Source: Plumapathes pennacea (taxonomy: Eukaryota > Cnidaria > Anthozoa > Antipatharia > Myriopathidae). Taken from it: a DNA stretch of 64,000 nucleotides. Shown here in pieces: positions 11,894 through 51,097 of this stretch. A model generated the notes under the pieces. It had not been told where the DNA came from. It saw nothing but the letters and a program-made list of their open reading frames with translations, and searched no databases. Position numbers and translations under genes: made by a program. The stretch's first letter is position 1. Each line of letters starts with the position of its first letter. The stretch spans positions 16,975,069 to 17,039,068 of the forward strand of contig OZ038463.1 in assembly GCA_964036295.1 (NCBI GenBank), read 5' to 3'.

Positions 11894-11951
11894 ATGGCGT
11901 CGTTGCGTGACTGTGTGTGTGTCTTGACTATATTTGTCGCGTGCGTTCGAG
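11894..11951 (+). CDS. Receptor exon 1: signal peptide
   Basis: The ATG at 11894 opens MASLRDCVCVLTIFVACVRG, a short hydrophobic leader. The exon ends CGAG before GTAAGT (phase 1). Joining to 19688 gives Gly then FEDDG in frame. The copy at 3650-3707 is its near twin. Confidence 0.8.
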
Positions 11952-17900: not shown

Positions 17901-20900
17901 GGCTTGCATTGTTTTTAAGCGTCGGAAGACTTGAAAATAGCCGTACCCAAATGCTTGATGTGTTACCAGCGGGACCCCCGTAAAGTACGAAGGGTTGTGT
18001 TTTGCAAATGCTCGATTATAGATACCGCTTCAACCAATGTATCTGTGTTCTGAGCAATATTTGTGTGAAAGAACATCGAATAAGTAGTAGAAGACGTGTC
18101 GAAACTTGATAGAACTTGAACTTTTCCCTGCGGGCAGAGCGTCTCCCTTTGTCGGAAACTCTGCGGCTTTGTGTAACGCGCGGCGTATACGAACAGTCGG
18201 CGTTTAACTTCGTTTTGCGTGCAGTAAAGGTTCTTTGTTTATTGTCTGAGGATATTGAATTACTAATAGGATTGAGGCAAATATCACGCGAGATTAAGAT
18301 ACAAGATCTGTCAATGAAATGTCACGAGCATAATATCATAGAACGGGGAATCCCGAATCATCAGCTACTTAGCTTTCACTCACGCCGCTTTAACAAAAGC
18401 AGGAAAGACCGGCAGGCGATTACATCGAGAATATTTGTCACTGAATACCTCGAAGTCTTCAAGGTTGATATCCGACTATCCGAGCCGTAATGTTCGCTCC
18501 ACAAGCCCGTGATGCACGCCTTTGTTGTCACGGTATTCAAACGTCTGCAGCTTCCGATAGAGATTAATTTCGTATCGACCCAGAATTTTGCGTTAAAGCT
18601 TAATGCATAGCAGTCTTGAACATATTAGTGATCAGACTTGTACATGTAGGATGCGTAACGTCTGAGATGGCTTTTTCATACGAAGTAATTTCATCATGGG
18701 AAGTGTCATGTTTTAGGCCCCGTCCACACTACGCCGGATAAATTTGAAAACGCAACTTTATTCTTACGGTTAGGAAAACGCTCTTCTAAGTGGATAAATT
18801 TGAAAGCGCCGGCTTTGCGTTTTGGTGTGGACGAAAAACATTTTGAAAACGGAACTTTTCGAAAACCCTGACTCACGTGGCCACGTCAAGTGGTTTCAAA
18901 GATTGTCAGGGACGTTTGTAGAGCAATAACAATACATTTGGGCCCGGAAACATTTTATCCGTTTTCCAGTGTGGACGGAAAACATTTCTTGCGTTTTCAG
19001 AGTGAAAGTTGCGTTTTCAAATTTATCCGGCGTAGTGTGGACGGGGCCTTAATGTGCTACAGCTACTTGAACATGATGCACACGCTGGGAAGATGAGATA
19101 AGGCTATTACGCTGTCTTACAGCTACTTAAGATGTCGGGTATTCCCCAGTCAATCCCATTACAAAATGACAACACAGTTCCTCCACAAAACATGTCAGCT
19201 TGAAAATTCACTCAACAAGGTTGCCAGGTTGTATAGAAAGCGTCACACAAGTACTGTCACGTGCATCGGAAAGCAATGAAAACTGGGTTGTTGCAAACGA
19301 AGAATATTCCTACGGGGCCTTCGATAATTGTTTTCTCTCAATTATTATAATACACTTTTTCGTGAATATCTGTTTGACCAAAATTAGAAGAAAAGAGGGC
19401 AAGAAAAATAAAGGGAGCTCTTGGATCCGTCATTTGCAAAAACTGACTCGGCTATAATATCTTTTGCATATAAACGCACGACAAAAGTTCCTCTCCCGGG
19501 ACCCCGCGTGTCTCTATTCATTGTACTAATGACGTCACAAGCGCACTGGCCACGGGCCTGTCTTGTTTACCTATAAATTAGATCAATTACTGCACTTTTT
19601 ACACGCGTGCGCCCGCGAAGAATAACAGGAGGTAGCTAAGGCTGACATACCTCTGTAGAAATGCCTCTGTCATACTATCGACTGCAGGTTTCGAAGACGA
19701 TGGCGTTTCCAGCTTCCTTCAGCAATCGGTACAGTTTGATGAAAGCTGGACGGAGGTGAGTGGGTGGAAAATGGATGAGAATACAGGCTTCTTCAATTTT
19801 TCTACCAAGTTCCCACCAAAGTTTTTGGTGCGGAATGCTGGCATTTACTACGTGTCTGGTAACTTTTGGATCAAAGACACAAACGTAAGCCTTGTGAGAG
19901 CTTCGATTGCTGTTAACGAAAGATTTGACGAACCCAATGGACTTACAGCAAGATTTGGTAACACGACAGCAAATGGTACGGTGTCGCTGTCTGGCCTTCT
20001 TTTACTGTACGAAAATGACGTAGTTTCAGTGGCTATCAAAGGCTCTGAAGGTACTCTACTGAAATTCAGCACGTTTTCTGTCCTTCGATTGGCCCAGATT
20101 GGGACTGTCCCAGGGCTCCACGTGGTCTTGTCGCGGGAAGTGAAGGGTTCTCTGTTGACGAAACGCCTAGAGGATTGGCGCACAAGTGGCACGAAGGGCT
20201 TATTTCAGGCACTTACGGGCTTCTCACCTTCCACTGGAAAATTCTGTGCAATTTTTGATGGACTCTACAAATATGCTTCGAACATCAATTTTAAATCTGT
20301 CCAAGACAAGGGAAACTCAACCATTCTGCTTGTTTTGAATGAGCAATCTACCATTGTCCGGTATTACGCCAGCGGATCTGGGAGACACACCGGTAGCATT
20401 GATGGCCTTCTTCATCTTCGGAAAGGAGACTGCATTCAATTGAACATATATTCCGAATACCAAGTGTCAAAAGACAGTAGTTTCTCTGCTCTTTACTTAG
20501 GAGCAGAACAGAGCAGTATCCCTGCGTTTTCTGCTCGACTTAGCAACCTCAGTCAAGTGAAACAAAGCGTTGATTGGTGGATGATAAGTGGATGGAATGA
20601 CGTCTCTTCTCAGGGATACTTTGAAAGCAAATCGGAAATTTCGAACAGACAGAAGACCTTCAAAGTCGCTGAAAAGGGATTTTACCTTGTTTCTGCTCTT
20701 TTGAATTTCGAGATCTCTGATTCAATGGATAACAGTCAGATATTTGGCTTCATCACGATAGTTGACCAACCATCTGGTGCAGATGGCAGCGGTGGACTCT
20801 TGGCGACAAAATCTGCTTCCCTTGGCAATACCTCCATCAACGTCCGTGGAGTGTTGTCTCTCAATAAAGACAACATTCTCAAAGTTTATCTTCGTCAAGA

Positions 20901-21478
20901 AGGCGGAGCCACCATTGCGAGAGACTTCAGTGGTTTCTTTAGCGCCTCTTTGATAACTTATGACTATGTGGGTGTTTCAGCTACTCTAAACACCGACAAG
21001 CGCATCGAGGTGTCGGACTGGATTGAACTCAGAGACTGGCAGACCTCAGTGGGCTCTGGGCTTTACCCCTTGCATGAGACATCTTTGACAGCCAGTGGGC
21101 GTTATCAGATATATCTTGATGGCACGTACTTCGTGTCATCCAATGTTATCATGAACAGCACCGAACGAGCTTCACTCGAGGCCTTAATAGCAGTCGACCA
21201 AGTTGTGGATCCCAGCAATGGGCTTTATTCACACGAGGAAAACGTGACGGGTTACAGGACCCTCAACGTGATGGGATCTTTAAATCTTCACCGAGGACAG
21301 AACGTGTCCGTGTTTGTTCGCGTGGGGCAAAGTGCATCATGGATGGTTAGAACAGAAACCAGCTTATCTGTTGCTCTGATTGGTGCCAGGCGGCTTGAGG
21401 ATGATGGTGTTCCTGGATTTTTTGCAGGTATAGAAATCCTGTCATGTATTTTCTTTAATCCAGCGTCACTACCTTGCA

Positions 21479-21511
<33 letters not shown>

Positions 21512-24500
21512 GGTATTGGGGACGATATGATTATGTGGGTCCTTTGTTTATCATAATTTTACCAAAGACGTTTCTACTCGACTGGTAGTGCATTTGTTCA
21601 GATTGACACATTTGACCTTATTTTCAACAGTTAAGAACGGGACGGATGCATTTACTACGAACGCCTGGACAGAAATAGTAGGCTGGTCGACCACTGAGGA
21701 GGGCAAGACAGTGTTTCAAACAGGGACTGCTTTTATCCCTGAAACTGGGAGGTTCACTTCACCACTTCCATCTGTCGGAATATATTTAATCAGTGCAAAT
21801 ATTTTGGTTTCTCACCATGCTTCGGCCTCCTTCAAACTTCAAGTTCGTATTAGCGGGAACGCAAACCTCAAGCCCATCTCAATTGGTCGTCCCGAGGAAA
21901 CCTCTAGTGGTAAAGGAATTTTAACTTTGTCCACCTCTGGCACAGCAAAACTCTCAAGTTCGAACGCCTATTTGTCTGTCTTCGTAAAAGCGGGTAGCAA
22001 TATTAGATGGTCTGTAGAACGTAACAGCAGCGTTTCAATTGCCCTTATTAAAGAAGAAAGGAGTGACGACTTTGCTGGATTTCGGGCTAGAGGTGTTGGT
22101 GAGATAAACGACGTTGCTGGAGTGCGGAAGGTACCCAATTTTTGGACTGTGGACCAAGCGGATTATCAAGATGTGTTTGATGAAGATGTCAAGGTTTTCC
22201 CAGGACAGTTCGCTTTTGGTTATGCAGAAATTCCAATTTCTGGCTTGTACTACGTAGAAAGCGTTGTCGAAGTGGTAAAAAAGTCCCCTCCTCAGTCCTC
22301 AGACCCGATAGCAATTGTTAGTGTATGTGTCGATGGAAATTTTTCTAAAAAAGGAGTGATTGCTTTTGAGAGAATCGACACGGCTCAATGGTCAATAATT
22401 ACGTTTGGTGTTTTTGGAGTGCTTTATCTCAGGAAAGGTCAGAAACTTTCAGTTTGCTTTGAATCTCAGATTAAACAATGGAGAATCAATGAGAACAGTA
22501 TTTTTTCCATTGTAAGAATTTTGCCATGGAAGCGCCCACCTGGGTTACAACAGCAACACACAGGAGCTCCACCTGCTCAAAATGCAGCGTTACCAATATG
22601 GTCGACCAACGGATTCACAAGCCAGTATAAAAGAGGATCAATCGTAGAGCCCATTAAATCTGCTCAATTCATGAAAAGCCGCCTAAAGCTGGCCAGAGAT
22701 GGAATTTATCTGATTTCTGTATCGTTTCTCGTACACGTTGAAGTTATCAGTAACGAGGGTATCTGTATTGGCTCTGAGGAGTGTTCATCTTGTGAACTCG
22801 AACTTTTTCCCCCAGTGGGGAAGGGAAGTGCAACAATCGGTCTTGTGAGGTTTTTGAATCTCACAACTGGCACAGATATCTATACGTGTGTGAACTTCAG
22901 CCAAAGTAGTGCTCGAAACGTTACTTTCGCTCGGCGCTCCGTTCAGTTACTCACCCTCGAAAAGGGAAGCACGTTGGTTGAACTGACACACAATTCGGCG
23001 TCGTCTGACGCTGGAGGCTGGCAAAAGATAACTCAATGGCTCACTCTTCAAGGAATACCACCAATACTTACGTCAGGACTATACATAGTAGCCTTGGACA
23101 TCCTTGTGAGATCTCAGCTTGGCCATAATGTCAGTGTGAAAGTAGAGACAAGTAATTCCAAAATACCACAGGTCTTGCATGCTACCACTACGCTTTCGGG
23201 AACGTCAAACATTTCTTTCAGTGCCACTGGTCTTGCTCGTGCTACAAAAGACGATGTTTTTTCTGTACTGGTGTTTTCTGGCAACTCCCAATTGGTGCTT
23301 CCGGATGTCAGGTTTTCTTTCGTTAAAATAAGGGAAGATACAGGAACTTGTTTTGCATTAAAACAGTCGCACGAAACCCGGATGAACGTGACGTCAGAGT
23401 GGTGGGCCGCCATAGAAGGCTGGGACACAGTTGACTTGGGATGTCTTCCGAACGGTTCAGACGAGAAAGGGGGAAGATTTGTGAACAACAGAGATGGCGT
23501 TTACTATGTAGCAGCAACGGTGCGTTTCAGACTGCCATCTGCAGCAGCTGTAAATAGTAGGTATGTATAGATCACTACGAAAGTTCATAACTCTTTCACT
23601 CCTGATACAGAAGTTTGATGAGGCCATCTGAGGAAGCTACCAATTTTCAATTCTCATTTAATTTCTGGCACCAAACTTGATTCATTATTATGATTATTAT
23701 TATGATTATGGTTATGATTATGATTATTCCCACGCCCTGCGTGGGTACTAATCTGAACACCATGTCGTTTTTTAATGTTTTTCGTTCACGGGCGACCTCC
23801 CCGTGCAGCGGGGTTTGCTGGGAAAAACATCGGAAGAGAATCACTTCCCCGCGCAGTGGGGCCTGCTGGGTAGAAACTCGGGACAGAATCACGCGTGGGG
23901 TTTGCTGGGTAGAACACTCTAACCTCGTTCCCAGGCTCTTTCCTCTCGCGACCTCGAATCTCGTGTTTTAATGTTTTTCGTTCACGGGCGACCTTCCCGC
24001 ACCGCGGTGTCTGCTGGGTTGATCACGTGGTATTCTGCTGGTCCGTTGCGAAGCAACGGACACTGTATAGGAGGCAAGTGTGAATCAAGTGAAGAATCAA
24101 ACCGAACACTCTCAAGAGGAGAAACAAGTTTGTCTTCAAAAACGAAGAGAACAAGCGAGACTAAGACGAATTCTTAAGACAAGGCAGGAGCGGTGTATCC
24201 GTCTCGAGCGCAGACGGCAAACAGACAGTGCTGTCGCTGCCAAAAAAGCAAAGCAACGGTATGACCGAGAGCATTATCAGCAGAAACGAGCTCAGGAGAC
24301 AACCCAGGAAAGAGAGCAGCTGATTGGGAGCATCATAGGCGGAAGCTGGCCCAAGAAACAACTCAGGCAAAAGAACAGCGCATGAAAGCCGCTCGACAAC
24401 GAGCTGCTTCCCGACGCCACAATGAAACGATTGCACAAGAGGCCCGCAGGCTTCAGGCTCAAAATGAGGCAACTTCCAGAGGCAACAATGTCTGCATAGC

Positions 24501-38490: not shown

Positions 38491-41400
38491 GTAATGTATG
38501 GTGTTGGGAAGTCTGGTGTGTGTGCCTGAGTGAGTGTGAGATTATGTAAGTAGTTACTGGGTCCTCTCAGTTCAACACTTACAGTACATGTTCCCTGTGT
38601 TTATTATTTGATTTATGTATTTTTGTCTACTTAGTCTTGTTTCATCATATTCCCTGGGAAACCTGACTCGAATAGTTCTTACTACTTAGGTCTCCCAGTA
38701 TTATTATTACTCATTATTGTAAACAGAAATTTATTTATTTTATCTTTGTTACAGTCATTATTGTTACATTGTTTACCAAACCAATAATAAAGTATCACTA
38801 TTTTGGAGGGCCATACGTGGACTTTTCTAAACACAGAGGCTAGTACGGATGTAAGCCTTGTGAAAATATAGAAAATACTCGATCTGTTAAGAAACAAGAG
38901 ATAGGGGAGAAGGTTAAATTCAAGTGTTCCTTTGTGAAAGAGTGAAACTAAAAACTAAGTTCTTATGATTGTGTATCTTCTTTTTCTCAGATACCCGTCC
39001 TATCTTCAAAAATGGTGCGTACACAGTCAAGGTGCTGGAAAACAAAAACATTAGCGAGACATTTTATTTCACAGCTCGCAACTCAAATAACAAGAGTGCC
39101 AACGTTTCGGGCAAAATATTAGGTATGTATACTACAACTGTCATTATGAAACTTCGTTCCATATGCTACGCGGCCGCATGCATCAAAGTTAAAAATGCAT
39201 GAAAGCTTAGAAAAAATAGCCAGGATTTAGAATGTTTAGGATGCACGTTGTCATAAAGTTACTTCTGGGCACCAATAATAAACGTTCAAGTAAATCTGTT
39301 GCCAGAAAGTAGCTACAAACGGGGATGCTGCAAGTTACTAGTGAATAAATAAATATTTAGATGGCATGTTTCCATTTTTTTGTGACGATATCTGGCTAGG
39401 TATATTTTGTATTATTAGTCTTTGTTTTGATTGTGAACAATGCCCTTTTGTCCTCTTCTTGTGTATTTTGAATTACAATGGTGTCTTAGTAAAAATAACG
39501 AGACATGAAACACTGCAATTATCAGATGTGTGACGACACTAACGTTCGCATATACTCTTCTGTATTTACACAGGCGGCCCAAGCTGATTGACTGTGTGAC
39601 GTCACGGTCGGGTTTTATAAGCAAATGTATGGGATATTTTAGTCGATCGATAACTCGAAAAATATTGCGAGAATAAAGCTTAGACTTGCTAACCTTGTTG
39701 TTGTGGTGGTTTTCTTGCTGCTGTAGCGATTTCAGCGTGTCTCGCTGAATTTTTCCTCTCTAACAGAAAAAATTTCAAGGCTGGCAACTCGGTCGATCTG
39801 GCATCCAGAATGGCTCCAGAAAAGTCTCTCAAATGCGGCCTTTCAACCTCCGTATGGCCACAAAACCCAGACATATGTCGAGTTGAATCCTTTTCCCATA
39901 AGACTGTCGCAAAAAAATTTCGAAAACGCCAGTTGAGTCCGAAGAAATTGCCGAAATCGGCCGTCAAAATGATTTCTGACAAGCCGTGAGGCCCATTCTT
40001 GGTCCACGGAAATGGCGTTTGAATTTCATGTCGAGCTCTGATTCGCTGCCTCTTTCGCATGCTAATTCAATTTACCGCGACACCGGGGAAGGGGCAAGGC
40101 TACATTTGTAGTCGGATTTTGAAACGAACCCCGGGCTCCAGGGGAGGATTATTGTCACAACCATTGTCTCGCGCAGGCCAATAGGAGCGATGCCGGCTTT
40201 TCACCTAGCCGAGAAATGTTTTTGTTGTCGTTTTGAGATGTTGCTGTTTCCGAGATGTTTTCAAAGCCTAATTGTCATAGTTCTTCATGCGATACACAAA
40301 GGTTAATACAAATGTAGCCTTGCCCCTCCCCGGTGTCGCGGTAAATTGAATTAGCATGCGAAAGAGGCAGCGAATCAGAGCTCGACATGAAATTCAAACG
40401 CCATTTCCGTGGACCAAGAGTGGGCCTCACGGCTTGTCAGAAACCATTTTGACGGCCGATTTCGGCAATTTCTTCGGACTCAACTGGCGTTTTCGAAATT
40501 TTTTTGCGACAGTCTTATGGGAAAAGGATTCAACTCGACATATGTCTGGGTTTTGTGGCCATACGGAGGTTGAAAGGCCGCATTTGAGAGACTTTTCTGG
40601 AGCCATTCTGGATGCCAGATCGACCGAGTTGCCAGCCTTGAAATTTTTTCTGTTAGAGAGGAAAAATTCAGCGAGACACGCTGAAATCGCTACAGCAGCA
40701 AGAAAACCACCACAACAACAAGGTTAGCAAGTCTAAGCTTTATTCTCGCAATATTTTTCGAGTTATCGATCGACTAAAATATCCCATACATTTGCTTATA
40801 AAACCCGACCGTGACGTCACACAGTCAATCAGCTTGGGCCGCCTGTGGTATTTACTGTGTATTTGGGAAGATATATATGCAGTGCATACAATAGCTATAT
40901 CAAGTGCCCAAAATTTAAAAATATGGCCCGCCAATATATTACTTACCGTGTAGTCGTGAATTGTCATTGTTTGAAAGACGGTAAAAATCAATCACATTCA
41001 TCAATCAGTCACAGAAATGGAGATGACACACCATGATATGACAGGGATATTTAAATATTCAAATTGGATAGTTTACCTGTTTATTATAGTACATTTTATC
41101 AATCGACTACTTTCTGTTTTTTTTTTTTTTTTGTTTCTTTGAAGGTAACCTCGACGATATCTTTGAAATATTTCCGAATACAGCGATGGACAAGTGGACA
41201 CTCAGGAATATAAAGTCTCTTGATTACGAAAGGAGATCGAGCTACATTATCAACATTTCTGCAACTAACAATGACACCCTGAAGAGCACTTTAATCAGTG
41301 TAACTATTGATGTCGAAGACGTGAACGACAATGTCCCAAAATTCAGCAGAAGGTAAATTTGTCTAAAGTTAGTAAAAATAGAATACGTAGTGTGGCTTTT

Positions 41401-44400
41401 ATAGGTTGGTTTTGTTGGTAGATTCATTGATGTCAATTTTCATTGCAGCAAAAGTCTCTAATAAAGCCACTGCTTTTGTTCATAACATTTATCTTACTAG
41501 TTAATAGCCAAGCGAGAGCAGTAGATATTACGCAAGAACTTTTCCGTTTTCAACATAGCAAAATTCTTCACACCTTTTGGTTCAGATGCACTTCCTGCTC
41601 TTTCAACATTAATAACCTGGTGTTGGTTTTACATTTTCAGAGAATACATCTTCACCGTCCCAGAAAATGCTAGTCAGGGTGCATTCGTTGGTCAGATGAA
41701 AGCTACAGACAATGACCTGTCCGCTAATCCAGTAATTGGGTATAATTTATTTCCTGATGGATCTGGCCAACCGTTTGGGATAGATGAAATAACCGGAAAC
41801 GTTACTGTTAACGGAACTCTGGATAGAGAAACGAACGGCAGTTACAATTTTGTTGTTAAAGCCAGCGATGTAGAGCACTCTACCTTTGCAAATTTGTCCA
41901 TTATAGTGTTGGACGTCAATGACAACCCTCCGGTATTCTCTCAGAAACATTACAATGGCAGTATAATGGAAAATGCGACAGTCGGTGCTTTTGTGTTACA
42001 AGTGTCTGCAGTAGACAAAGATATTGGAGCTGATGCTAAAGTCGTTTACACGTTTGTAGGATCTTCCCGACATTTTAGCATAAATGAAACAACTGGAATC
42101 GTTACAGTCAATAGAAGTTTGGACAGAGAAACCAACGACAGTTACAATTTTGTTGCCAAAGCCAGCGATGGAGAGCACTCAACTACTGCAAATTTGTCCA
42201 TTATAGTATTGGACGTTAATGATAACCTTCCGGTATTCTCTAAGAATCACTACAATGGCAGTATAATGGAGAATGCAAGAATCGGTGCTTTTGTGTTACA
42301 AGTGTCTGTAAGTGACTACGATGTTGGAGCTAATGCTGCAGTCGTTTACTCGTTTGAAGGATCTTCCCGACATTTTAGAATAAATGGAACAACTGGAATC
42401 GTTACAGTCAATAGAAGTTTGGACAGAGAAACGAACGACAGTTACAATTTTGTTGTCAAAGCCAGCGATGGAGAGCACTCAACTACTGCAAATTTGTCCA
42501 TTATAGTATTGGACGTTAATGATAACCTTCCGGTATTCTCTAAGAAACACTACAATAGCAGTATAATGGAGAATGCAAGAATCGATGCTTTTGTGTTACA
42601 AGTGTCTGCAAGTGACAACGATGTTGGAGCTAATGCTGCAGTCGTTTACTCGTTTGAAGGATCTTCCCGACATTTTAGCATAAATGAAACAACTGGAATC
42701 GTTACAGTCAATAGAAGTTTGGACAGAGAAACGAACGACAGTTACAATTTTGTTGTCAAAGCCAGCGATGGAGAGCACTCAACTACTGCAAATTTGTCCA
42801 TTATAGTATTGGACGTTAATGATAACCTTCCGGTATTCTCTAAGAAACACTACAATGGCAGTATAATGGAGAATGCAAGAATCGGTGCTTTTGTGTTACA
42901 AGTGTCTGCAAGTGACAACGATGTTGGAGCTAATGCTGCAGTCGTTTACTCGTTTGAGGGATCTTCCCGACATTTTAGCATAAATGAAACAACTGGAATC
43001 GTTACAGTCAATAGAAGTTTGGACAGAGAAACGAACGACAGTTACAATTTTGTTGTCAAAGCCAGCGATGGAGAGCACTCAACTACTGCAAATTTGTCCA
43101 TTATAGTATTGGACGTTAATGATAACCTTCCGGTATTCTCTAAGAAACACTACAATGGCAGTATAATGGAGAATGCAAGAATCGGTGCTTTTGTGTTACA
43201 AGTGTCTGCAAGTGACAACGATGTTGGAGATAATGCTGCAGTCGTTTACTCGTTTGAAGGATCTTCCCGACATTTTAGGATAAATGGAACAACTGGAATC
43301 GTTACAGTCAATAGAAGTTTGGACAGAGAAACGAACGACAGTTACAATTTTGTTGTCAAAGCCAGCGATGGAGAGCACTCAACTACTGCAAATTTGTCCA
43401 TTATAGTATTGGACGTTAATGATAACCTTCCGGTATTCTCTAAGAAACACTACAATGGCAGTATAATGGAGAATGCAAGAATCGGTGCTTTTGTGTTACA
43501 AGTGTCTGCAAGTGACAACGACGTTGGAGCTAATGCTGCAGTCGTTTACTCGTTTGAAGGATCTTCCCGACATTTTAGAATAAATGGAACAACTGGAATC
43601 GTTACAGTCAATAGACGTTTGGACAGAGAAACGAACGGCAGTTACAATTTTGTTGCCAAAGCCAGCGATGGAGAGCACTCAACTACTGCAAATTTGTCCA
43701 TTACAGTATTGGACGTTAATGATAACCTTCCGGTATTCTCTAAGAAACACTACAATGGCAGTATAATGGAGAATGCAAGAATCGGTGCTTTTGTGTTACA
43801 AGTGTCTGCAAGTGACAACGATGTTGGAGCTAATGCTGCAGTCGTTTACTCGTTTGAAGGATCTTCCCGACATTTTAGGATAAATGGAACAACTGGAATC
43901 GTTACAGTTAATATAAGTCTGGACAGAGAAACAAACGACAGCTTCGATTTGGTTGTCAAAGCCAGCAATGGAGAGCACTCCACGTTTGCAAATTTGTCCA
44001 TAATAGTGTTGGACGTTAATGACAACCCTCCAATCTTCTCTAATGAACACTACGATGCCAGTATAATGGCGAATGCAGCAGTCGGTGCTTTTGTGATACA
44101 AGTGTTTGCTGAGGATGATGATATTGGAGCAAATGCTGAAATCGCTTACAAGTTCGAAGGAAATGGTGAACCTTTCAAAATAAATAAAACAAGCGGAAAC
44201 GTTGCGGTTAATGCAAGTCTCGAGCTACAGCAGTACAACTTAAATGTCACCGCTAGCGATGGAGTGCATTACGCTAAAGCAACGTTAGACGTCGAAGTAT
44301 CACAGAAGGTCACTTACCCTGCTGGGAGGGAAGGTAATATTATTTTATTGTCGCTGTTCAGTGGAGATGTTTTTGTTGCTGTTCTTTCTTCTGTTTTTCT

Positions 44401-47400
44401 TCTTCCCTCAGACAATGGACTTAGGGAGCAATGTGGAGAGCTAGAGAGCACATATCTTACATTGCCCAAATTTGTCCCGTTTTTGCCGAAGTTCTATTGC
44501 CTTCATCGTCTCCTTACTAAGGGCCCGGTCGCACTGGGAAGTTTGGTCGATAATAACTCGGCATCGAGAGCAATACGACGGCTTCTTCAATGTTTCGTAG
44601 CAACTTACTGACATATAATGTTTGGATTTAAAATGACGCAAATGTCGATATTAATGTCTTTAAAGTTACGAGTGCGACCGGAGCCTAAGAAGGACTGTCG
44701 TAATTTCTCAAAATGACGTTCACGTCCTGACAACAGCCTGAAAAACACGCGAAAGCACGATGGCCCGAGCTCATGTCAATTTCACATATTCACGTGCTTC
44801 TTTTGTCTTTTGCAAGTAGTAATATATTTTCACCGACGTTGCCGTCGTCCTCTCCCGTCCTGGGCCCGGTTGTTTGAAAGCCGATTAAGCTAATCTGGGA
44901 TTAACGAAATTCTTTCACTCGAACTCTTTGCCAATAAACAGCAAGGTTTTGTTCGAAGATAGATTAAAAAGCTTGTTCCAGCTTAAGACGTATCGAGAAA
45001 GTCGTTGCAGGACGAACCTTCACATTTTGAGGCTTATAAATGACAAGAACGTTTAGACCTAATCCAGGATTAGCCTAATCGTGCTTTGAAAAACCGGACC
45101 CTGGTGCTTAAATTTCCTAATAGGGAAAGCTACAAAGACATAACGATTACGGATAATTATACTTTTTTGCTGGTTCCTCGCGTTGCCGTCGTCGTCCTAG
45201 TTTGCGTTGTGTCTTTTGAGGAATGCAGTCACCCTTTCGTCTCCCTGATGAAATGGAAGTGAATCTGCTGCTAGCAAGTCAATTTTGTAAGGTATTATTT
45301 TTATCCACAGGTACTCTCGACGGCGGAGAGATAGCTGCGATTGCAGTTGGGATATTAATCGGGTTGGTCATATGCATAGCATGGTGAGTACTTCTTGTTT
45401 GGAACCTAAGAATCCCTCTCACTATAAATTACACGCTTGTATGGCCACAGTCAGTCAGTAAAATAGCTATTGCCCCACCGTGATCTGCGAGTTCTCGTGT
45501 GACTAACTACCTCGTTCTATTTTTGTATATATATATTTTTTTTCTTTTTTTTTTTGTATTTTAGAGTGGCTAGTTCGCTACTGTGTACTTCGTAGGGGTA
45601 CGACAGTGAGCTCGGTTTCCTAGTTAATGCTGGTTTAGCAAGCGCAAGTTATCATTCTCTTTCGTCTGTGTTTGCTTTACAAATTATACCGTATGAACTG
45701 GTCGCTTGCACTTGCGCTTGTGTTTGCTCTTGCGCTTGTTTTACTAGTGTGGACCAGCCTTTACCATTTAATTTTTGTTTGTGGGGAAGCCGATGAGCTT
45801 AAGATTGCAAGTGTGTCATCATCGTCATATTCTTTTTTCAAATATAATCAAATCCATCAGCCAAATCGTTCCCTAAATTCACTGCCAACTAGTCTTGTTA
45901 TATTTAGAGTATATTTGAAGCTCCCGTATACTGACGCTCTTGGAAAGCGGAAGAAGTAACTGAAACTGGAACTCGCTGCTTACGAGAATGAATCTTGATA
46001 GCGGCCACACTTAACTCAGAACGATGACCGACGCGCGAAAGAGATCTGGGGTGAGAACAGACTCGAGGCTTGTTAGGATATCAAAAACAACAGGACAAAT
46101 CCAAACTTTTCTTTGCAAAATTTCCAAGTCTGCATAAACTGACACTGCTAATAGAAGCGAATCATACCCACTCAACCTTTCCAAATATGTGGGTCACGTC
46201 ACATTTATCCTAATAAGCCTCGCTCTAGTGCCGAGTTCCAGGTTTCTCCGCGCGTCCGCCATATTTATGAATGCGCTAACGGAAGCTTGAATGACATAGC
46301 ACTTTACTGAACTCTGTCAATCGTCATTTACAATACTGTAAGTGATTTTGGAATAAAGCCATTGTGGCGAAATACTAAATAAACAATAAACTACTTTTGG
46401 TGAGGAAATATGCACGGATAATAGTTCGAGGATATTATCTTTTCCGAGAAGCGAACAGTTGCCCGAGAGCGAAGCTCGGGTGCAACTGTAAGCTTCGAGG
46501 ACTAAATAATGTCCAAGGACAATTATCCGCGCATATTTGCGAGGCCAAAAGTAGTTTATTGTCTTTATTATCCTTCAGATATTTCGTCTCGCAGCGCAAA
46601 TAGTGGCGCGGGGACGCTGAAGCTTTTTGGTGCTTTCTGGAACTGCTTTTTCGACCAAAAAATTGATGTCCTCCTCGGTAGTCATCTCGTAATGTTTTTT
46701 TTTCTTTTCTTTTCTTTTCTTTTCTTTTGTGATTAAATAAATAAAAAATGTTTGGATATTGTCAATAAACAGCGTTAGTTCGCCAGGCGAGGGTTATTCG
46801 CTGATAACGTCCGCTCGGGAGTGTCACGATTCTATTAGTCGCGCGCGGGAGGAAATATTTGGTGGGTCATAATTACTCATATTCCTCTCGAAATAAGTAG
46901 GGACATCACTTCTGGGATCTGTCCTTTACCAGATACACTAATCATGATATACAGTAGGGGCCACCCAATTAATCTCCATTTGTTAACTCCGTGGTAATAC
47001 CTGAAATAAAACTAACCAGATACGCTGCTTATATTTTGTTATAATTATTTTCTTATTTTTGCAGTCTGATTAAATTTGTAAGGAGGAAACGCAATCGTAC
47101 AGATTCTTAGTAAGTATTATATTTCGTTTTCTTATCCTTGAGTTGACGCAGTTCTTGTTGTATGTTGCTTTGGCCACAGGCAACCCAGGCTTAAGGGGCC
47201 TGGAAGCGAGTTTTCATTTTATAAGAGTTTGAGGGGGATCTAGATGGCGCAAAATAATTTAGGAAATACTCAAATAAAAGAAGTGAAAGTGTTTCGGTGT
47301 TTATTTACCTACGAACTATCTGTGGTCGCGATTACATCGTTTTCGGGCAAATTTTGCGCCTGCTGTGGGTAACGATAAGAAAAAAGGGAAGGTAGGAGAT

Positions 47401-50400
47401 GACTCGTTCGAGTGAGTCGAACTCTGGGCGATTTTTCTCCTCAAAATTCAGGCGGGGGGGCTGTGGTTTGGTTAGGCGCCCAGGCCTAACCGCCCACAAA
47501 CGGTTTTCAGTGGTAACGCTTTCCAGACGTACGCATCAAAATGGCCGCGAAGGAGTGAATTTGAGGCGTGCAATGGCGCCGTACTCGTCGGAAATGGAGC
47601 AGACCAGGGATTACCTTGCTCAGATAGTTGGAGAATGTCTTTGCTAATGCTGTGGTTGAGGTAGTATTTGGCTTATTTTGAATTTTGAGGAGAAAAATCG
47701 CCCAGAGTTCGACTCACTCGAACGAGTCGTCTCCTACCTTCCCTTTTTTCTTATCGTTACCCACAGCGGGCGCAAAATTTGCCCGAAAACGATGTAATCG
47801 CGACCACAGATAGTTCGTAGGTAAATAAACACCGAAGCAAAGTTTCACTTCTTTTATTTGAGTATTTCCTAAATTATTTTGCGCCATCTAGATCCCCACT
47901 TAAACTCTTATAAAATGAAAACTCGCTTCCAGGCCCCCTAAGCCTGGGTTGCCTGTGCTTTGGCCATAAGTGTATTTCACGATATAATACAGTAGTGTCA
48001 AAAAGTACCACTGGAAAAACAAGTGATATTGTGTATTTTTTTGCTAGCTACATGGCAACTATACAAACCCTTATTACACCATTTCACATCTTCGAGTGCA
48101 GATAAAGGTCAAAACGAGTGCAAAGATGGGAGCGTATTGCACTCGCCAGGAACCAAATCAACTGGTCTACTAGCTTACGTGGTCAATTTTCGCAAGCAAA
48201 GTTTACAAACGCGTCATCTTTTGTTCCATTTTGCGCGCGGCGAAACTTTTGCCCTGCTTCGTTTGTCGTATAAAGCCCCATGCACACGAGCAAGTTTTCT
48301 ATGACAAGTAATAATAATAATAATAATAATAATTAGCCTTTATTGTTTTATGATTTGTACATATTTGAAATTAATAGCCAAAGCCAGAGGCTTATATTGC
48401 ATAGGCTGGAGGAAAGTCTATAGTGAAAAAAAATACTGACAAATCAAATAACATTAACAGAGAAATAAAAAAAATAATACATACATAATACATACATACA
48501 TACATTGGTCTAATACACAAGCATATATTATACAGTACATTATTACTATAAATACACTTAGCCAGAGACATACACATACATATGCATACACGCACATGCA
48601 TATAATTATCAAAGGCATATCTACATGCATACATATAGTTAGTATAGTTGTAGGGTGAACTAGTAAGTGAGGTGTAGGAAATATGACTTCAATAACCTCT
48701 TGTAGTTAAATTGTTTCAGCGACTGGCGAATTGACAGTTTTCTGTGACAAGCTTTTTTTGCTCGTGTACATGAGAAAATTTGGGCAGATTTTCTGTGACA
48801 AATGCATTTGCTGAAAAGCTGGCGTGCTAGCTTTTTTTATGACAAGGAAAACTTGTCACATGTGAAATTTGATCATGTACACGAAAACTTGTCAAAGTTT
48901 TTCGAAAAACTTTAGCTCCCATGTCTTCATTTGTAAGCGTGTTTGCACGGTCAAGATGGCGGCATTCACAACATTGACAACAAAGTCTTTGAATTAGCCA
49001 AATAATGCAGTTAGCCGCTGGAGGCTTTGAAATCACGCGAAAAGTTTATGGAAGTCAAAGTCAGAAGGAAAAGAAACAACGAAAATTTGTCAAAAAACTT
49101 GTGAAAAAAATAGTGGCTCGACCGTATACACGGGCAAATCATTTGTCACAGAAAATTTGTCATAGAAAACTTGCTCGTGTGCATGGGGCTTAATAAATGA
49201 TTTATTACACGCATGCTCGGAAAAATAGAACAGACTAGTAAAAATACTCCGCCGTATTGCACTCCTTAACGTCCGTAAAAGGAGGTTATTACACAATGTA
49301 CGTAAAACAACGTCATAAGGGATAGGGTCAATCATTACAACCTCCTGCAAAAAATGATGTTTGATTTTCTCCTTGAAGCATCTGAGAAGGATAGGAAGTG
49401 CAGTGTATTGTAAATCGTTTGCTCCGTTCGTTTGACTGTATTGTAAATCTAAAGTGGCTAGCGCTATAGTCTGGTAGTTTTTTTTCCCCTTGTACTTGTG
49501 TCTCTTGTTTTACATCGCCAGAAATTTCAGACATCCGGTTGCGCCATCTTGGAAAAGGCATCAGGTTTCACGCTGAGAGCCGCTCAAGAAATAACAAAGA
49601 AATGTATGGGATCTGATAATAAATTGCGCTTTTCGCTTAACTGAAGCACGTTCGTAAAAATGTTTGGGCAGCATTCGGAAGAAGAAAGCTTCCTAAACAC
49701 AACAGTACAAAAAATATTTATCTCCGGTAAAATTCGATGTGTACTTTTTTGAATTTAAAATTTCGGCCGACGTAAGAAGGGATTGATAGCAGAATACGCT
49801 CAAAACCGGCTACTGTCACTTTTTAAGCTGCACTTAATACAAGAACTTTGGGTACAACGCAAAATGTTTACCCCGTACCTGATTGTCGAAGGATTGAACA
49901 TCTCCTGTGAAGTCTCGGTCAGTCCCCTGGAGCAAATTCGATGTGTACTTTTTGCGTTTGAATTTGCAGTTCACAGCCAGCCGTGGCGAATGCCTCCCGT
50001 GAAATACGCTGACTTCGGATGTTGATATTTTGGGCTGGGAAGCTCCAAATCGCATGAAAATTGCACCAAACGAAGGCTAATTTCAACTGGGTCGGTCAGC
50101 GGCACATCTCCTAAACTAGCAGTCTCTTTTTGAACCGGAGAAGCCCATCCCTCCCCCACCCCACTGAGGCAAAATACGTAACAATGTTGAATATATAAAT
50201 GGCGCATGCTCATACCGCACGCCGCTGGGAAAGACCGGAAGCAATCGTGGACGCAAAATGTCCGGAATTTCTGGCGATGACTTATTAGGTTTTTGACATT
50301 CAGTTTACATATGATGATAAAGCACACTTCCCTTATTATAGGTCTTGTTTATTTATATTTTGCAGCGAGGTATCCCAAAAAAACATCCGAACGAGTAACC

Positions 50401-51097
50401 TTACGGTACTTGAATCGAAAAATTCTGAAGACTATTTTGCTCTCTCTCATATTGTTGGCAGTCAGCACATTACAGAGGCAAAGTAAGTATCCATAGATGT
50501 AGCGGAGAAATGACAAAGAAACTGAGAATGCATTCTCTAGGAAGTATTTAATCTATTTCTATTCGGGGATAGGAATAACAGAATACACAAAATACCTGTT
50601 TCCAAAAGAACAGGCTTTGCGCCATTTCGAAAATAGAATAGCTGACGTGACAGAATACGGCATAGAAACAAAAACAAAATCGTAAGATCTTCACGTGACA
50701 AGGATGACTACGAAAAAATGGCGGTCCCGTCTCCCCACACTTTTATACCTGATTACAGGCGGACGTAAAAAACCACTGAGGACGTAAACAAATCTCTGGC
50801 AGTGACCAACTTCAGTGCTGTTATCCACGGGCCCACAGTATTTGGCGTAGGCTGTTGTGGTGACCCCGGCCGTATGGCGAAGACAATAAATACTCTCTTG
50901 ACAATAGTCAGTTGACGATATCTCGTGCTTTTATTGTGAACTATATTTGTAAGAAGCAGAGAACCGTCCACATCTTTGCCCAGTTTCTTCCCTGTTTCTT
51001 ATGCAGTTTTACTTGGCTTTGCAGGTCGTCTAGTGTCGAGCCGGAGGGTCATATTGATAACAAAAATTCTAAAGAAATTGAGAAGCCTGCTTCGTAA
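11894..51097 (+). CDS. Large adhesion/recognition receptor: signal peptide, 9 C1q/TNF-like domains, Ig, 10 cadherin repeats, TM, short tail
   Basis: Proposed coding exons: 11894-11951, 19688-21427, 21631-23560, 33011-33219, 34188-34354, 34707-34833, 38991-39122, 41145-41352, 41641-44333, 45311-45383, 47065-47109, 50366-50482, 51025-51097. Every junction has GT/AG ends and matching phase, and the sum is 7572 nt (2523 aa plus stop). Approximate residues: signal peptide 1-20; jelly-roll domains 20-1312; Ig 1313-1410; cadherin repeats 1411-2420; TM 2425-2448; tail to 2523. The product is predicted to be a single-pass type I plasma-membrane protein. C1q/TNF folds often trimerise and bind partners, and cadherins bind through calcium-stiffened repeats, so an adhesion or recognition role is inferred. 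I do not recognise a named orthologue. An exon could be missing in the 7.7-kb first intron. Confidence 0.85.
11956..12900. repeat. Tandem repeat, two units of about 475 bp
   Basis: The motif 'gagttaatcgttgtttaaag' starts at about 11961 and again at about 12449. The rest follows in register, including 'catctgctcactaga' and 'gtgacataggtg'. The units share the block structure of the repeats at 1-3640, so the whole upstream area seems to have grown by repeated local duplication. Confidence 0.75.
12901..13640. other. Intron sequence with further degenerate copies of the 5' repeat
   Basis: Tracts such as 'cccccgcctaggattaaaca' near 13286 echo 'cccccgtcctaagattaaac' near 3160. Nothing coding is supported. 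Confidence 0.45.
13651..14286. mobile_element. Short inverted-repeat DNA element (MITE-like), TAA target duplication
   Basis: The left end reads GGCCCTGTTTACAAGGAAGG and the right end is its imperfect reverse complement (TGTAAACAGAGCT). TAA flanks both ends (13648-13650 and 14287-14289). Internally there is a C/G run near 13921-13943. The 3-bp TAA duplication is typical of the PIF/Harbinger group, so it is probably a non-autonomous member. There is no coding frame. Confidence 0.7.
14518..15640. repeat. Dispersed repeat family, recurring at 54494-55300
   Basis: The segment 'gccttgccagtgagctcgcg' and its continuation (15500-15629) recurs at 54505-54624. A related start occurs at 14524. The block with 'ccacatctcgagttgttt' (14600-14700) recurs at 55115-55205. 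The two parts occur in swapped order at the two sites, so they are probably pieces of a larger mobile element. I cannot assign the family. Confidence 0.6.
15641..17050. other. Intron sequence without a supported gene
   Basis: It holds an AT run near 16485-16505, a TGACGTCA site near 16562 and a stretch (16750-17040) that reads like a decayed coding sequence on the plus strand, broken by several stops. I do not recognise it. Confidence 0.4.
17051..18490 (+). other. Cluster of short unassigned open frames in intron 1
   Basis: An ATG at 17081 opens MRVNLKVLCILLLCIILADT, which looks like a secretory leader, but the frame stops at 17236. A 111-codon frame (17287-17622) and a 124-codon frame (18116-18490) share a related stretch: NKSRKSRRLIQEYISK in the first and NKSRKDRQAITSRIF in the second. 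These may be remnants of a duplicated gene or mobile element. Neither shows a family motif I recognise. Confidence 0.25.
18716..19048. mobile_element. Harbinger-like MITE, TTA target duplication
   Basis: The terminal inverted repeats are about 45 bp and nearly perfect (GGCCCCGTCCACACTACGCC at the left, its reverse complement at the right). TTA flanks both ends. The element at 33269-33536 has related ends. It is non-coding. Confidence 0.85.
19688..21427 (+). CDS. Receptor exon 2: jelly-roll domains 1-4
   Basis: Four repeats of about 140 residues share a pattern: a Trp near the start (SWTEVSGW, LEDW, WWMISGW, WIELRDW), then tG-F/Y, a G-xY-xVS strand (AGIYYVSGNF), a G-L-L-L-Y/R-GD type strand (SGLLLLYEND, DGLLHLRKGD) and a closing S-x-FS-xxL/I strand. 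This is the order seen in C1q/TNF-like beta-sandwiches. There is no collagen stalk. The exon has no internal intron and ends at GCAG/GTATAG in phase 1. The frame is open upstream of the first in-exon ATG, so the exon must be joined to a leader exon. Confidence 0.85.
21428..21630 (+). other. Receptor intron 2 (203 bp) with a run of 30 G
   Basis: This short intron contains 30 uninterrupted G residues (21481-21510) on the transcribed-sense strand, about 54 nt from the donor. The acceptor is TTTTCAACAG at 21630. Such a tract can form a G-quadruplex in RNA and is prone to length change. Confidence 0.85.
21631..23560 (+). CDS. Receptor exon 3: jelly-roll domains 5-8 and the first half of 9
   Basis: The exon enters in phase 1 and leaves in phase 2 at AGTAG/GTATGT. 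Domain starts are recognisable by WTEIVGW (about 21665), FWTVDQ (22138), LPIWSTNGF (22591), WQKITQW (23022) and WWAAIEGW (23401). Domain 9 stops after RDGVYYVAATVRFRLP and resumes in exon 4. Domains 6 and 7 diverge most. Several N-x-S/T sites suggest an extracellular glycoprotein. Confidence 0.85.
23682..23728. repeat. Simple repeat (ATT/ATG-rich) at the left edge of the giant inverted repeat
   Basis: An irregular run of ATT and ATG triplets directly abuts the left terminus. Similar simple sequence starts the spacer at 26934. Confidence 0.85.
24080..24560 (+). pseudogene. Basic coiled-coil ORF remnant, left arm
   Basis: The frame at 24080-24385 encodes an Arg/Lys/Gln/Glu-rich helix (KRREQARLRRIL, DREHYQQKRAQETTQ). 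The similarity continues in another frame (EHHRRKLAQETTQAKEQ, then QRAASRRHNETIAQEARRLQ) to about 24560, so there is a frameshift near 24320. The composition resembles the basic N-terminal regions of some mobile-element replication proteins, for example Helitron-like ones; that link is only an inference. Confidence 0.45.
26366..26760. repeat. Element with internal GGTCTGAAATAGGGT minisatellite, left-arm copy
   Basis: The ends are G/C-rich and inverted (GGGGGGAGTACT at the left, GAGTACTCTCC at the right). The interior repeats 'ggtctgaaatagggt' several times. Related copies lie at 28351-28752 (the partner arm) and 60027-60350. Confidence 0.7.
26934..27041. repeat. Compound trinucleotide microsatellite (GAT, ATT, GTT)
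   Basis: Consecutive runs of GAT, ATT and GTT triplets lie in the spacer next to the inner end of the left arm. Confidence 0.95.
27247..27943. mobile_element. CATCGCCAGAAATT element, copy 1 (right end missing)
   Basis: It begins CATCGCCAGAAATTTCAGAC and matches the copies at 49513-50279 and 56627-57394 until about 27943, where the similarity stops. About 65 bp of the right end, including the inverted repeat, are absent. It fills most of the palindrome spacer. Confidence 0.8.
28351..28752. repeat. Element with internal GGTCTGAAATAGGGT minisatellite, right-arm copy
   Basis: Inverted partner of 26366-26760, carried by the right arm of the giant inverted repeat. Confidence 0.7.
29905..30970. 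mobile_element. 1.07-kb insertion in the right arm, ending in a 189-bp hairpin
   Basis: The left arm has continuous sequence where the right arm is interrupted, so this segment entered after the arms formed, or was lost from the left arm. Its right end is a strong hairpin: 46-bp perfect arms at 30781-30826 and 30924-30969. Near the left end 'ataaaccac' motifs recur in both orientations (29970-30020). No transposase is recognisable; a 68-codon open frame at 30093 is unassigned. Confidence 0.7.
31675..32137 (-). pseudogene. Basic coiled-coil ORF remnant, right arm
   Basis: Inverted twin of the frame at 24080-24560, with the same internal frameshift. A 6-nt stretch present in the left arm (near 24176) is missing here, so the arms are no longer identical. 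Confidence 0.45.
33011..33219 (+). CDS. Receptor exon 4: second half of jelly-roll domain 9
   Basis: The exon enters in phase 2 and leaves in phase 1 (TTAG/GTATGT). It continues the domain with strands such as VRIGDFVTLAVTSTVYL and VSLSVKSDG and the closing STFYVALL. The frame is open throughout. Confidence 0.8.
33269..33536. mobile_element. Harbinger-like MITE, TAA target duplication
   Basis: The ends GGCCTCGTCCACA and GGGCGGGGCC are inverted, and TAA flanks both sides (33266-33268, 33537-33539). It is related to the element at 18716-19048 and lies in receptor intron 4. Confidence 0.75.
34188..34354 (+). CDS. Receptor exon 5: Ig domain, first half
   Basis: The exon enters in phase 1 (joined codon Asp) and ends in phase 0 at AATCAG/GTAGTT. 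It carries the first Ig cysteine and the core Trp (IQWRCAVVPLN, then LKWLKDNQ). The pattern fits an I-set-like Ig domain interrupted by an intron. Confidence 0.85.
34707..34833 (+). CDS. Receptor exon 6: Ig domain, second half
   Basis: Phase 0 in, phase 1 out. It has the hallmark DSGRYFCVAES around the second Ig cysteine and a final strand ATELEVY. Confidence 0.9.
35237..35430. mobile_element. GGGCCCrGTyGCAC MITE, copy 1, TAA target duplication
   Basis: The ends GGGCCCAGTTGCACCAGAC and GTGCGACTGAGGCC are inverted repeats, with TAA on both sides. Copies 2 and 3 are at 44521-44685 and 54309-54489. Confidence 0.8.
35470..35815 (+). pseudogene. Non-LTR retrotransposon reverse transcriptase fragment (part 1)
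   Basis: The translation YVKYLGVLIDANLNW is the classic segment after the catalytic core of non-LTR reverse transcriptases. It is followed by SIIYPYLTYGLLAWGN. The copy is 5'-truncated. The frame breaks off after KLLKVIDL, where another element has inserted, and resumes at 38067. Confidence 0.85.
35816..38066. mobile_element. 2.25-kb element with CCCACGC ends, rich in GGTAC motifs
   Basis: The inverted ends read CCCACGCGAAATTTTAGGTA at the left, and the right end is the reverse complement of CCCACGCAAAATTTTAGGTA. The outer 0.5 kb on each side is packed with imperfect 'aatgtacct'/'aggtacatt' words in both orientations. Removing the element restores the reading frame of the surrounding reverse transcriptase with no obvious target duplication. 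The ends resemble those of the giant inverted repeat at 23729-32488. I see no transposase. Confidence 0.75.
38067..38800 (+). pseudogene. Non-LTR retrotransposon, reverse transcriptase tail and 3' end (part 2)
   Basis: The translation resumes ITLKLAMFMFDSHHDNLPSA and ends near 38351 (FKKEVRLKLLSQC), a typical non-LTR C-terminus. The 3' UTR has a (TG)n run at 38450-38487 and ends near 'accaataataaagt' at about 38795. Confidence 0.8.
38991..39122 (+). CDS. Receptor exon 7: cadherin repeat 1, first part
   Basis: Phase 1 in and out. The translation starts DTRPIFKNGAYTVKVLENKN, matching the opening of a cadherin repeat with its calcium-binding Glu. The acceptor is TTTTTCTCAG. Confidence 0.8.
   Translation: MPVLSSKMVRTQSRCWKTKTLARHFISQLATQITRVPTFRAKY
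39689..40060 (-). CDS. Unassigned 123-aa frame in the left arm of the foldback element
   Basis: The frame starts MRKRQRIRARHEIQTPFPWT and ends PPQQQG. It differs from the right-arm copy by two residues (Asn/Ser and Ile/Thr). I do not recognise a family. It could be the first exon of a transposon or captured gene, since the frame runs into a possible donor (AAG/GTTAGC). It may also be open only because the arms are recent copies. Confidence 0.3.
   Translation of the reverse strand: MRKRQRIRARHEIQTPFPWTKNGPHGLSEIILTADFGNFFGLNWRFRNFFATVLWEKDSTRHMSGFCGHTEVERPHLRDFSGAILDARSTELPALKFFLLERKNSARHAEIATAARKPPQQQG
40356..40727 (+). CDS. Unassigned 123-aa frame in the right arm of the foldback element
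   Basis: Inverted twin of 39689-40060. It has the same start and end, and reads outward from the centre of the element as the left copy does. Confidence 0.3.
   Translation: MRKRQRIRARHEIQTPFPWTKSGPHGLSETILTADFGNFFGLNWRFRNFFATVLWEKDSTRHMSGFCGHTEVERPHLRDFSGAILDARSTELPALKFFLLERKNSARHAEIATAARKPPQQQG
41145..41352 (+). CDS. Receptor exon 8: cadherin repeat 1, second part
   Basis: Phase 1 in, phase 2 out (AGAAG/GTAAAT). It contains SLDYERRSSYIINISA in place of the LDRE region and the linker VEDVNDNVPKFSRR, a canonical calcium-binding DxNDN motif. Confidence 0.9.
41641..44333 (+). CDS. Receptor exon 9: cadherin repeats 2-10, with an exact 300-bp period
   Basis: One intronless exon encodes nine cadherin repeats of about 100 residues. 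Boundaries fall near 41941, 42241, 42541, 42841, 43141, 43441, 43741 and 44041. Each of the first eight ends in VLDVNDN and carries LDRE and a DxD/DxND motif, so calcium binding looks intact. Repeats 3-9 keep an exact 300-bp spacing, and repeats 4-8 differ by only a few bases each. The last repeat lacks LDRE (it has LELQQ) and the DxNDN linker, as is usual for a membrane-proximal repeat. Each central repeat carries about five N-x-S/T sites. The exon ends GGGAAG/GTAATA in phase 1; the frame continues past the donor by chance. Confidence 0.95.
44521..44685. mobile_element. GGGCCCrGTyGCAC MITE, copy 2, TAA target duplication
   Basis: 165 bp with inverted ends GGGCCCGGTCGCACT and AGTGCGACCGGAGCC; TAA flanks both sides. 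It lies in receptor intron 9. Confidence 0.85.
44860..45104. mobile_element. CCAGGGCCCGG inverted-repeat element, clean copy
   Basis: The left end TGGGCCCGGTTGTTTGAAAG pairs with the right end (CTTTGAAAAACCGGACCC). It matches the element at 3833-4450 along its interior. It is non-coding. Confidence 0.75.
45311..45383 (+). CDS. Receptor exon 10: transmembrane helix
   Basis: Phase 1 in, phase 2 out (GCATG/GTGAGT). The sequence GEIAAIAVGILIGLVICIA is a typical single-pass helix with a GxxxG motif (GILIG). Positive residues follow in the next exon, giving an extracellular N-terminus. Confidence 0.85.
45384..47064 (+). other. Receptor intron 10
   Basis: It contains T-rich tracts near 45530-45560, a 178-bp inverted-repeat element (46384-46561) and a (TTTTC)n run near 46694-46728. 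A 95-codon open frame at 45672 has no recognisable features. Confidence 0.6.
46384..46561. mobile_element. Short inverted-repeat element (CAATAAACTACTTTTGG)
   Basis: 178 bp. The ends CAATAAACTACTTTTGG and its exact reverse complement extend imperfectly to about 45 bp. It has a GC-rich loop near 46460-46480 and is non-coding. Confidence 0.8.
47065..47109 (+). CDS. Receptor exon 11: juxtamembrane basic segment, with a stop overlapping the donor
   Basis: The exon completes Cys and encodes LIKFVRRKRNRTDS. It ends TCTTA before a strong donor GTAAGT at 47110. If spliced, the phase-2 end joins 50366 to give Tyr and the frame continues. If the intron is retained, the same bases read TCT TAG and the protein stops there. 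Confidence 0.75.
47175..47957. mobile_element. Foldback element with about 0.28-kb arms and a 7-bp target duplication
   Basis: The arms 47175-47455 and 47673-47957 are inverted copies (ends CACAGGCAACCCAGGCTTA and its partner). CTTTGGC abuts both ends (47168-47174, 47958-47964). The match can be read as 11 bp if the terminal CA/TG is given to the target. The spacer is about 220 bp. It has the same terminal CACAGGC as the element at 39569-40847. Confidence 0.85.
48274..49190. mobile_element. AGCCCCATGCACACGAGC MITE, TAA target duplication, interrupted
   Basis: The inverted ends AGCCCCATGCACACGAGCAA and GCTCGTGTGCATGGGGCT are flanked by TAA (48271-48273, 49191-49193), suggesting the Harbinger group. 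A non-LTR 3' fragment (about 48308-48735) has inserted in it. Confidence 0.8.
48308..48735 (-). pseudogene. Truncated non-LTR retrotransposon 3' end with (ATT)n tail
   Basis: On the minus strand the translation SIRQSLKQFNYKRLLKSYF followed by a stop (48733 down to about 48660) is a typical reverse-transcriptase C-terminus. A 3' UTR and an (ATT)n tail at 48308-48336 follow. A short GACA repeat at both junctions may be the target duplication. Only the extreme 3' end was inserted. Confidence 0.65.
49513..50279. mobile_element. CATCGCCAGAAATT element, copy 2 (complete)
   Basis: 767 bp with terminal inverted repeats CATCGCCAGAAATT and AATTTCTGGCGATG. It matches 27247-27943 and, inverted, 56627-57394. 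The frames within (about 80 codons) are not conserved enough to call. It ends 86 bp before receptor exon 12. Confidence 0.85.
50366..50482 (+). CDS. Receptor exon 12: cytoplasmic tail
   Basis: Acceptor TTTTGCAG, phase 2 in and out (GGCAA/GTAAGT). The translation YEVSQKNIRTSNLTVL continues with SKNSEDYFALSHIVGSQ. YFAL fits the YxxPhi endocytic sorting pattern. The frame is open only in the phase set by exon 11, which supports the splice. Confidence 0.75.
50483..51024 (+). other. Receptor intron 12 (542 bp)
   Basis: GTAAGT donor and GCTTTGCAG acceptor. No element or RNA gene is recognisable. Confidence 0.65.
51025..51097 (+). CDS. Receptor exon 13: C-terminus and stop
   Basis: The joined codon Lys is followed by SSSVEPEGHIDNKNSKEIEK and PAS, then TAA at 51095-51097. 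The segment is short, polar and Ser/Glu-rich. No AATAAA signal is obvious just downstream. Confidence 0.75.

Follow-up and report, generated by a model that had tools for sequence, protein, structure and literature searches.

A predicted single-pass receptor of Plumapathes pennacea joining nine C1q/TNF-like jelly-rolls, one Ig domain and ten cadherin repeats

In FAT, Dachsous and CELSR, cadherin repeats (EC) are accompanied by EGF, LamG or 7TM modules, while vertebrate protocadherins encode many EC repeats per single large exon; trans contacts of cadherins are made by the outermost repeats. Ligands of the TNF superfamily (TNFSF) are type II membrane proteins with a single C-terminal trimerising domain, and TNF-like domains bind TNFR-type receptors. 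Alr-type receptors possess tandem Ig-like domains and ITIM/ITAM-like motifs, and are encoded in a gene complex whose alleles are extremely polymorphic. Hedgling, found in choanoflagellates, sponges and cnidarians, is described in an excerpt of PMC4054682 as a large TM protein whose cadherin repeats are preceded by other modules at the N-terminus. Excerpts of other papers describe bivalve C1qDC proteins as lectin-like recognition molecules (PMC6835236), count 39 and 40 TNFR-domain proteins in the genomes of two corals (PMC6208414), report that purified coral TNF acts on human cells and, in 2016, name the ligands of invertebrate TNFRs as an open question (both PMC4979521), and treat class 1-1 introns at module boundaries as the pattern of exon shuffling (PMC8001218). 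Here, we describe a predicted gene of P. pennacea in which jelly-roll, Ig and cadherin modules are found in one exon chain, using a window of 64,000 nucleotides (the whole stretch of DNA analysed).

Exon chain and its surroundings

Thirteen exons on the plus strand (11894-51097; Table 1) gave a spliced coding sequence of 7572 nt without internal stop: 2523 amino acids and a stop codon. The protein order was a signal peptide, nine jelly-rolls (JR1-JR9), one Ig domain, ten cadherin repeats (EC1-EC10), one TM helix, and a 77-residue tail; the architecture, 13 exons, 2523-residue length and single TM helix of the preliminary description were therefore borne out by the spliced frame. All 12 introns had GT..AG ends, and the phases out of exons 1-12 (1, 1, 2, 1, 0, 1, 1, 2, 1, 2, 2, and 2) agreed along the whole chain. 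Donor scores in the gene ranged from 1.1 to 7.8 bits using an ad hoc matrix, for which 8.2% and 0.8% of 3969 GT on the plus strand scored at least 0 and at least 4, respectively. Acceptors were mostly pyrimidine-rich, the weak ones being those at 19688 (0.59) and 34707 (0.53). Four introns lay in or next to domains recovered by joining exons: JR9 (exons 3/4), Ig (5/6), EC1 (7/8), and the EC1-EC2 linker (8/9). Modules were separated by phase-1 introns in four of four cases, namely signal peptide/JR1, JR9/Ig, Ig/EC1, and EC10/TM. This class 1-1 pattern supports the term "chimeric" given earlier to the protein, and suggests that the gene is likely a product of exon shuffling. No further jelly-roll or cadherin exons were detected among the 1669 six-frame ORFs of at least 25 aa in the window, in which the best stray profile match was to the EC profile (E=0.98; 53255-53404, minus strand). 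Rfam and tRNA searches gave no match.

Table 1. Coordinates of the exons and of the near-identical repeat units, with the evidence for each.
Feature	Coordinates	Strand	Evidence
Exon 1: signal peptide with start codon; donor of phase 1	11894..11951	+	Hydrophobic-core search
Exon 2: JR1-JR4	19688..21427	+	Pfam and repeat profile
Exon 3: JR5-JR8, JR9 (N-terminal half)	21631..23560	+	Pfam and repeat profile
Exon 4: second half of JR9	33011..33219	+	JR profile, E=1.9e-14
Exon 5: first part of Ig	34188..34354	+	Joined Ig_2, 1.1e-10
Exon 6: second part of Ig	34707..34833	+	Ig_2
Exon 7: first half of EC1	38991..39122	+	EC profile, 7.3e-11
Exon 8: second half of EC1, DVNDN linker	41145..41352	+	EC profile, 1.2e-24
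Exon 9: EC2-EC10	41641..44333	+	Nine Pfam Cadherin stretches
EC4-EC8: five near-identical 300-nt units within exon 9	42236..43735	+	97.0-99.0% nt identity
Exon 10: TM helix	45311..45383	+	Hydropathy peak
Exon 11: membrane-proximal basic stretch of tail	47065..47109	+	Splice sites only
Exon 12: tail, YFAL motif	50366..50482	+	Splice sites only
Exon 13: tail end and stop codon	51025..51097	+	Splice sites only

Several repeats were observed in and around the gene. A young BEL/Pao LTR retrotransposon (4733-11172, minus strand), with one 1981-aa frame, ends approximately 720 bp upstream of the start codon. Pao peptidase, DUF1759 and integrase H2C2 passed the Pfam cut-offs in this frame (RVT_1 did not), and its LTRs of approximately 207 bp were 99% identical, with CTCAG on both flanks. 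A direct duplication (11960-12387 and 12447-12874; 85%) begins 9 bases past exon 1, and intron 2 (21428-21630) is just 203 bp, with a run of approximately 30 G. Intron 3, which splits JR9, contains an 8.8-kb palindrome (23727-32490) with aligned arm pieces of 98-99% identity and further inserts in the right arm and loop; both ends are TTCCCACGCCC reading inward, with TTA flanks, and might resemble those of a mobile element. One repeat was present in three copies, 95-97% alike: 27241-27943 (intron 3), 49513-50279 (intron 11), and 56627-57400 (downstream of the gene). Tight inverted repeats were located in introns 7 (39569-40847; 99%) and 11 (47175-47957; 97%). Two frames in intron 6 (35439-35852 and 37980-38351, plus strand), separated by repetitive sequence, had no Pfam support and presumably resemble the terminal part of a non-LTR reverse transcriptase. 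For a short frame at 62990-63457 (minus strand), the 7tm_2 match was borderline, its score of 20.6 bits (E=3e-4) just equalling the cut-off (20.6).

Jelly-rolls, Ig domain, cadherin repeats, and tail

Pairwise identity among the nine jelly-rolls was 15-27%. When each was scored with a profile of the other eight, values of 15.0-53.2 bits were obtained, and the score was reached by 0/999 shuffles for all nine; the weakest were JR7 (15.0 bits) and JR8 (17.9 bits), which had no Pfam match at E<=1 and were recognised by the repeat profile only. Among single jelly-rolls, only JR2 passed the Pfam cut-off (C1q, 1.5e-6), and six others matched C1q, TNF or BclA_C below it; with longer frames, C1q (JR1-JR4) and TNF (JR5-JR9a) both passed. 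The two halves of JR9 matched the JR profile with 2.9e-18 and 1.9e-14, values flattered by the inclusion of the tested repeats in the profile, and the joined domain gave a weak TNF match (0.0021, below the cut-off). NCBIfam returned no family for the jelly-rolls. A profile of eight jelly-rolls (JR9 left out; the first residue of JR4 entered as M, its GTG codon being read as a start) was compared with PDB: among the best 60 of 82 matches, CD40L, RANKL, EDA and adiponectin ranked first (E 0.0017-0.0075), and lower rows contained more TNF/C1q proteins and, from E 0.1, Fab chains, taken as noise. These results place the nine predicted domains in the TNF/C1q jelly-roll superfamily at the domain level. 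An arrangement as three-by-three trimers was rejected because the similarity among jelly-rolls had no period of three. N-glycosylation sequons in JR1-JR9 were in excess: 21 versus 11.4 in shuffles, with 4/2000 shuffles reaching the number.

The Ig domain was recovered by joining exons 5 and 6 (Ig_2, 1.1e-10); the exon 6 frame alone gave 1.1e-5 and the exon 5 frame no match. The sequon excess in this domain was not significant (181/2000 shuffles).

EC1, joined from exons 7 and 8, matched Pfam Cadherin across the entire profile (1.5e-9), and its halves matched the EC profile with 7.3e-11 and 1.2e-24, again flattered because the profile includes the tested repeats. EC2-EC10 were encoded by one 2.7-kb exon with nine Pfam Cadherin stretches (3.5e-176). 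On this repetitive exon 9, unrelated families, some of them bacterial, also exceeded the cut-off and were taken as cross-matches, while 12 NCBIfam families matched, all below cut-off. DVNDN followed each of EC1-EC9, LDRE was present in EC2-EC9, and a DxD-type motif in EC2-EC10; the majority of the remaining calcium motifs were likewise retained in EC2-EC9. EC1 and EC10 were degenerate, with several calcium motifs missing. Tandem EC repeats with calcium-binding motifs assign this part of the predicted protein to the cadherin superfamily.

EC3-EC9 were exact 300-nt units. DNA identity among EC4-EC8 was 97.0-99.0% in all ten pairs, and dS between EC9 and EC3-EC8 was 0.19-0.26, from which the tandem array appears either to have expanded recently or to have been homogenised. 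Stalk length would therefore be directly measurable in populations. Positive selection on the repeats was unsupported: two of the ten EC4-EC8 pairs had a dS of 0, and eight had dN/dS of 0.55-2.30. Variable codons in EC4-EC8 (12 nonsynonymous and 2 synonymous, versus sites of 234:66) were compatible with neutrality, as judged without a formal test. EC2-EC10 contained 43 sequons versus 16.0 in shuffles (0/2000 reached this number), an excess that is less independent than it seems because the repeats copy one another; the excess in EC1 was not significant (194/2000). In EC3-EC9, sequons were located at positions 7, 50, 59, 67, and 86, and at three of these positions the middle residue varied, yet the sequon was kept (NGS/NSS, NET/NGT, and NDS/NGS). 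Sequon 59 was absent from EC8, EC3 had an extra one at 13, and the patterns of EC2 and EC10 differed.

The TM helix was the hydropathy maximum of the protein (3.06 over 19 residues), and the peak extended a few residues into exon 11. A single YxxPhi motif, YFAL, was found in the tail; searches of the tail for ITIM, ITAM and a class I PDZ end found none, and strong autonomous signalling is therefore unlikely. Cadherin_C had no Pfam match at E<=1 in the TM helix and tail. Read-through of the exon 9 donor (44334-44611) encodes an alternative hydrophobic stretch with a stop at 44611, which may be a second C-terminus of the protein or a chance product of T-rich intron sequence.

Probable continuity of the gene and its proposed role

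Exons 1-13 probably form one gene, as judged from the single signal peptide, the single TM helix, and phase 1 at all module boundaries. Within 11000-19687, exon 1 was the sole ATG exon that combined a phase-1 donor with a hydrophobic core, against an expected number of 0.15. The jelly-roll part had the only convincing signal peptide and no stop ahead of its donor, the Ig exons had neither signal peptide nor TM, and the cadherin part had the TM helix and, as its only signal-peptide candidate, 38443-38515 (in 34834-38990), which was discounted as a microsatellite artefact. In the short stretches examined, no site was better than the donors at 33219 and 34833 and the acceptors at 34188 and 38991, each being either the best or the only one. 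Both deciding junctions, JR9/Ig and Ig/EC1, run from phase 1 to phase 1; since no domain spans them, this agreement carries limited weight, as chance would produce it in approximately 1 in 9 cases (an estimate). The absence of a domain across JR9/Ig would also fit two adjacent genes. Exons 1-4 would then encode a secreted protein of nine jelly-rolls, terminated by a stop in the retained intron, and exons 5-13 an Ig-cadherin receptor whose first exon is unfound. Beyond the exon 4 donor the frame stays open for just seven codons before a stop, and an AATAAA is present at 34054, so a secreted jelly-roll protein would be possible. However, with either of two sets of thresholds, no signal-peptide exon for such a second gene was detected in 23561-33010 or in 33220-34187 (for single-exon, phase-1 candidates), and 33219/34188 is a good single donor and acceptor pair with matching phases. 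We consider two genes unlikely; the one gene could possibly also yield a shorter secreted form, if the intron following exon 4 is retained.

For the product of this one gene, we propose, with roughly even confidence, a type I single-pass receptor with a multivalent head on a recently lengthened, glycan-sheathed cadherin stalk. The nine divergent TNF/C1q-like jelly-rolls and the Ig domain would form the binding head, and the ten cadherin repeats, mostly with calcium motifs, a long rigid stalk holding it far from the membrane as a calcium-stiffened, probably sugar-coated spacer. The jelly-rolls have diverged, whereas the repeats of the stalk are almost copies of one another and have approximately five sequons each, which suggests that most specificity lies in the head. 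Its candidate partners may be other cells, microbes or TNFR-type proteins, and YFAL in the short tail may connect the receptor with endocytosis or with weak signalling based on tyrosine.

The conserved calcium motifs of the ten cadherin repeats, and the best PDB matches of EC2-EC10 (CELSR1, protocadherins and cadherin-23 among the best 60 of 170), might instead point to an adhesion molecule in the first place, with homophilic cell-cell contact through the cadherin repeats and the jelly-rolls as a mere cap. These repeats, however, sit below ten other domains, when outermost repeats would be expected to make trans contacts; they are near-identical and rich in sequons, and the TM-tail piece gave no Cadherin_C match, making this reading rather improbable. 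Still less weight is given to a new receptor class, in which the tethered nine TNF-like jelly-rolls, displayed in trans on the cadherin stalk, would engage the many coral TNFR-type receptors multivalently, as ligand or as trap, and in which the stalk would vary in length between alleles by unequal crossing-over. A young or homogenised array open to unequal crossing-over would also suit an allorecognition receptor distinguishing self from non-self by an allele-specific head or by repeat number, and cnidarian Alr receptors are Ig-superfamily proteins according to an excerpt of PMC11999971. The self/non-self role put forward in the preliminary description is an analogy, given one Ig domain and a tail without ITIM or ITAM; the codon counts of EC4-EC8 (12:2 versus 234:66) are compatible with neutrality without a formal test, and the window contains no second jelly-roll or cadherin gene. 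We regard allorecognition as very unlikely.

Comparison with known systems

Among the matches listed (titles and beginnings of abstracts), the open-access literature contained no architecture of cadherin with C1q/TNF/jelly-roll domains; judged from the literature, it is provisionally new, and it is quite possible that orthologues are already in databases under automatic names. No relatives were confirmed in viral contigs or prokaryote genome contigs, where few are expected because these collections are not animal. If one transcript is confirmed, a TNF/C1q fold would be joined to a cadherin stalk, an unusual combination, and the jelly-roll head would be a testable candidate partner for coral TNFR-type receptors. 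Since coral TNF acts on human cells, ordinary ligands exist too.

Long calcium-binding cadherin arrays are shared with FAT, Dachsous, CELSR and protocadherins, and exon 9 resembles the large exon of vertebrate protocadherins in encoding many EC repeats. In contrast to FAT, Dachsous and CELSR, exons 2-13 had no Pfam match at E<=1 to EGF, LamG, 7TM or Cadherin_C and encode a jelly-roll/Ig head instead; the catenin-binding Cadherin_C of classical cadherins was likewise without match in the TM helix and tail. The jelly-roll domain is shared with TNF superfamily ligands, C1q/TNF-related proteins and C1qDC proteins. Nine jelly-rolls are, however, placed N-terminally on a stalk here, and the order is type I, not the type II order of TNFSF ligands with their one C-terminal domain. 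The protein resembles Hydractinia Alr as a surface protein with Ig, but has one Ig domain, no ITIM/ITAM, and a cadherin stalk. Coral skeletal protocadherin-like proteins are also large cadherin-repeat membrane proteins; the EGF, LamG and catenin-binding domains ascribed to them in an excerpt of PMC8086859 were not matched here. The N-terminal Hedgehog signal and VWA domains of Hedgling, as given in the excerpt of PMC4054682, had no Pfam match in this protein, while the two share the same order: cadherin repeats preceded N-terminally by other modules.
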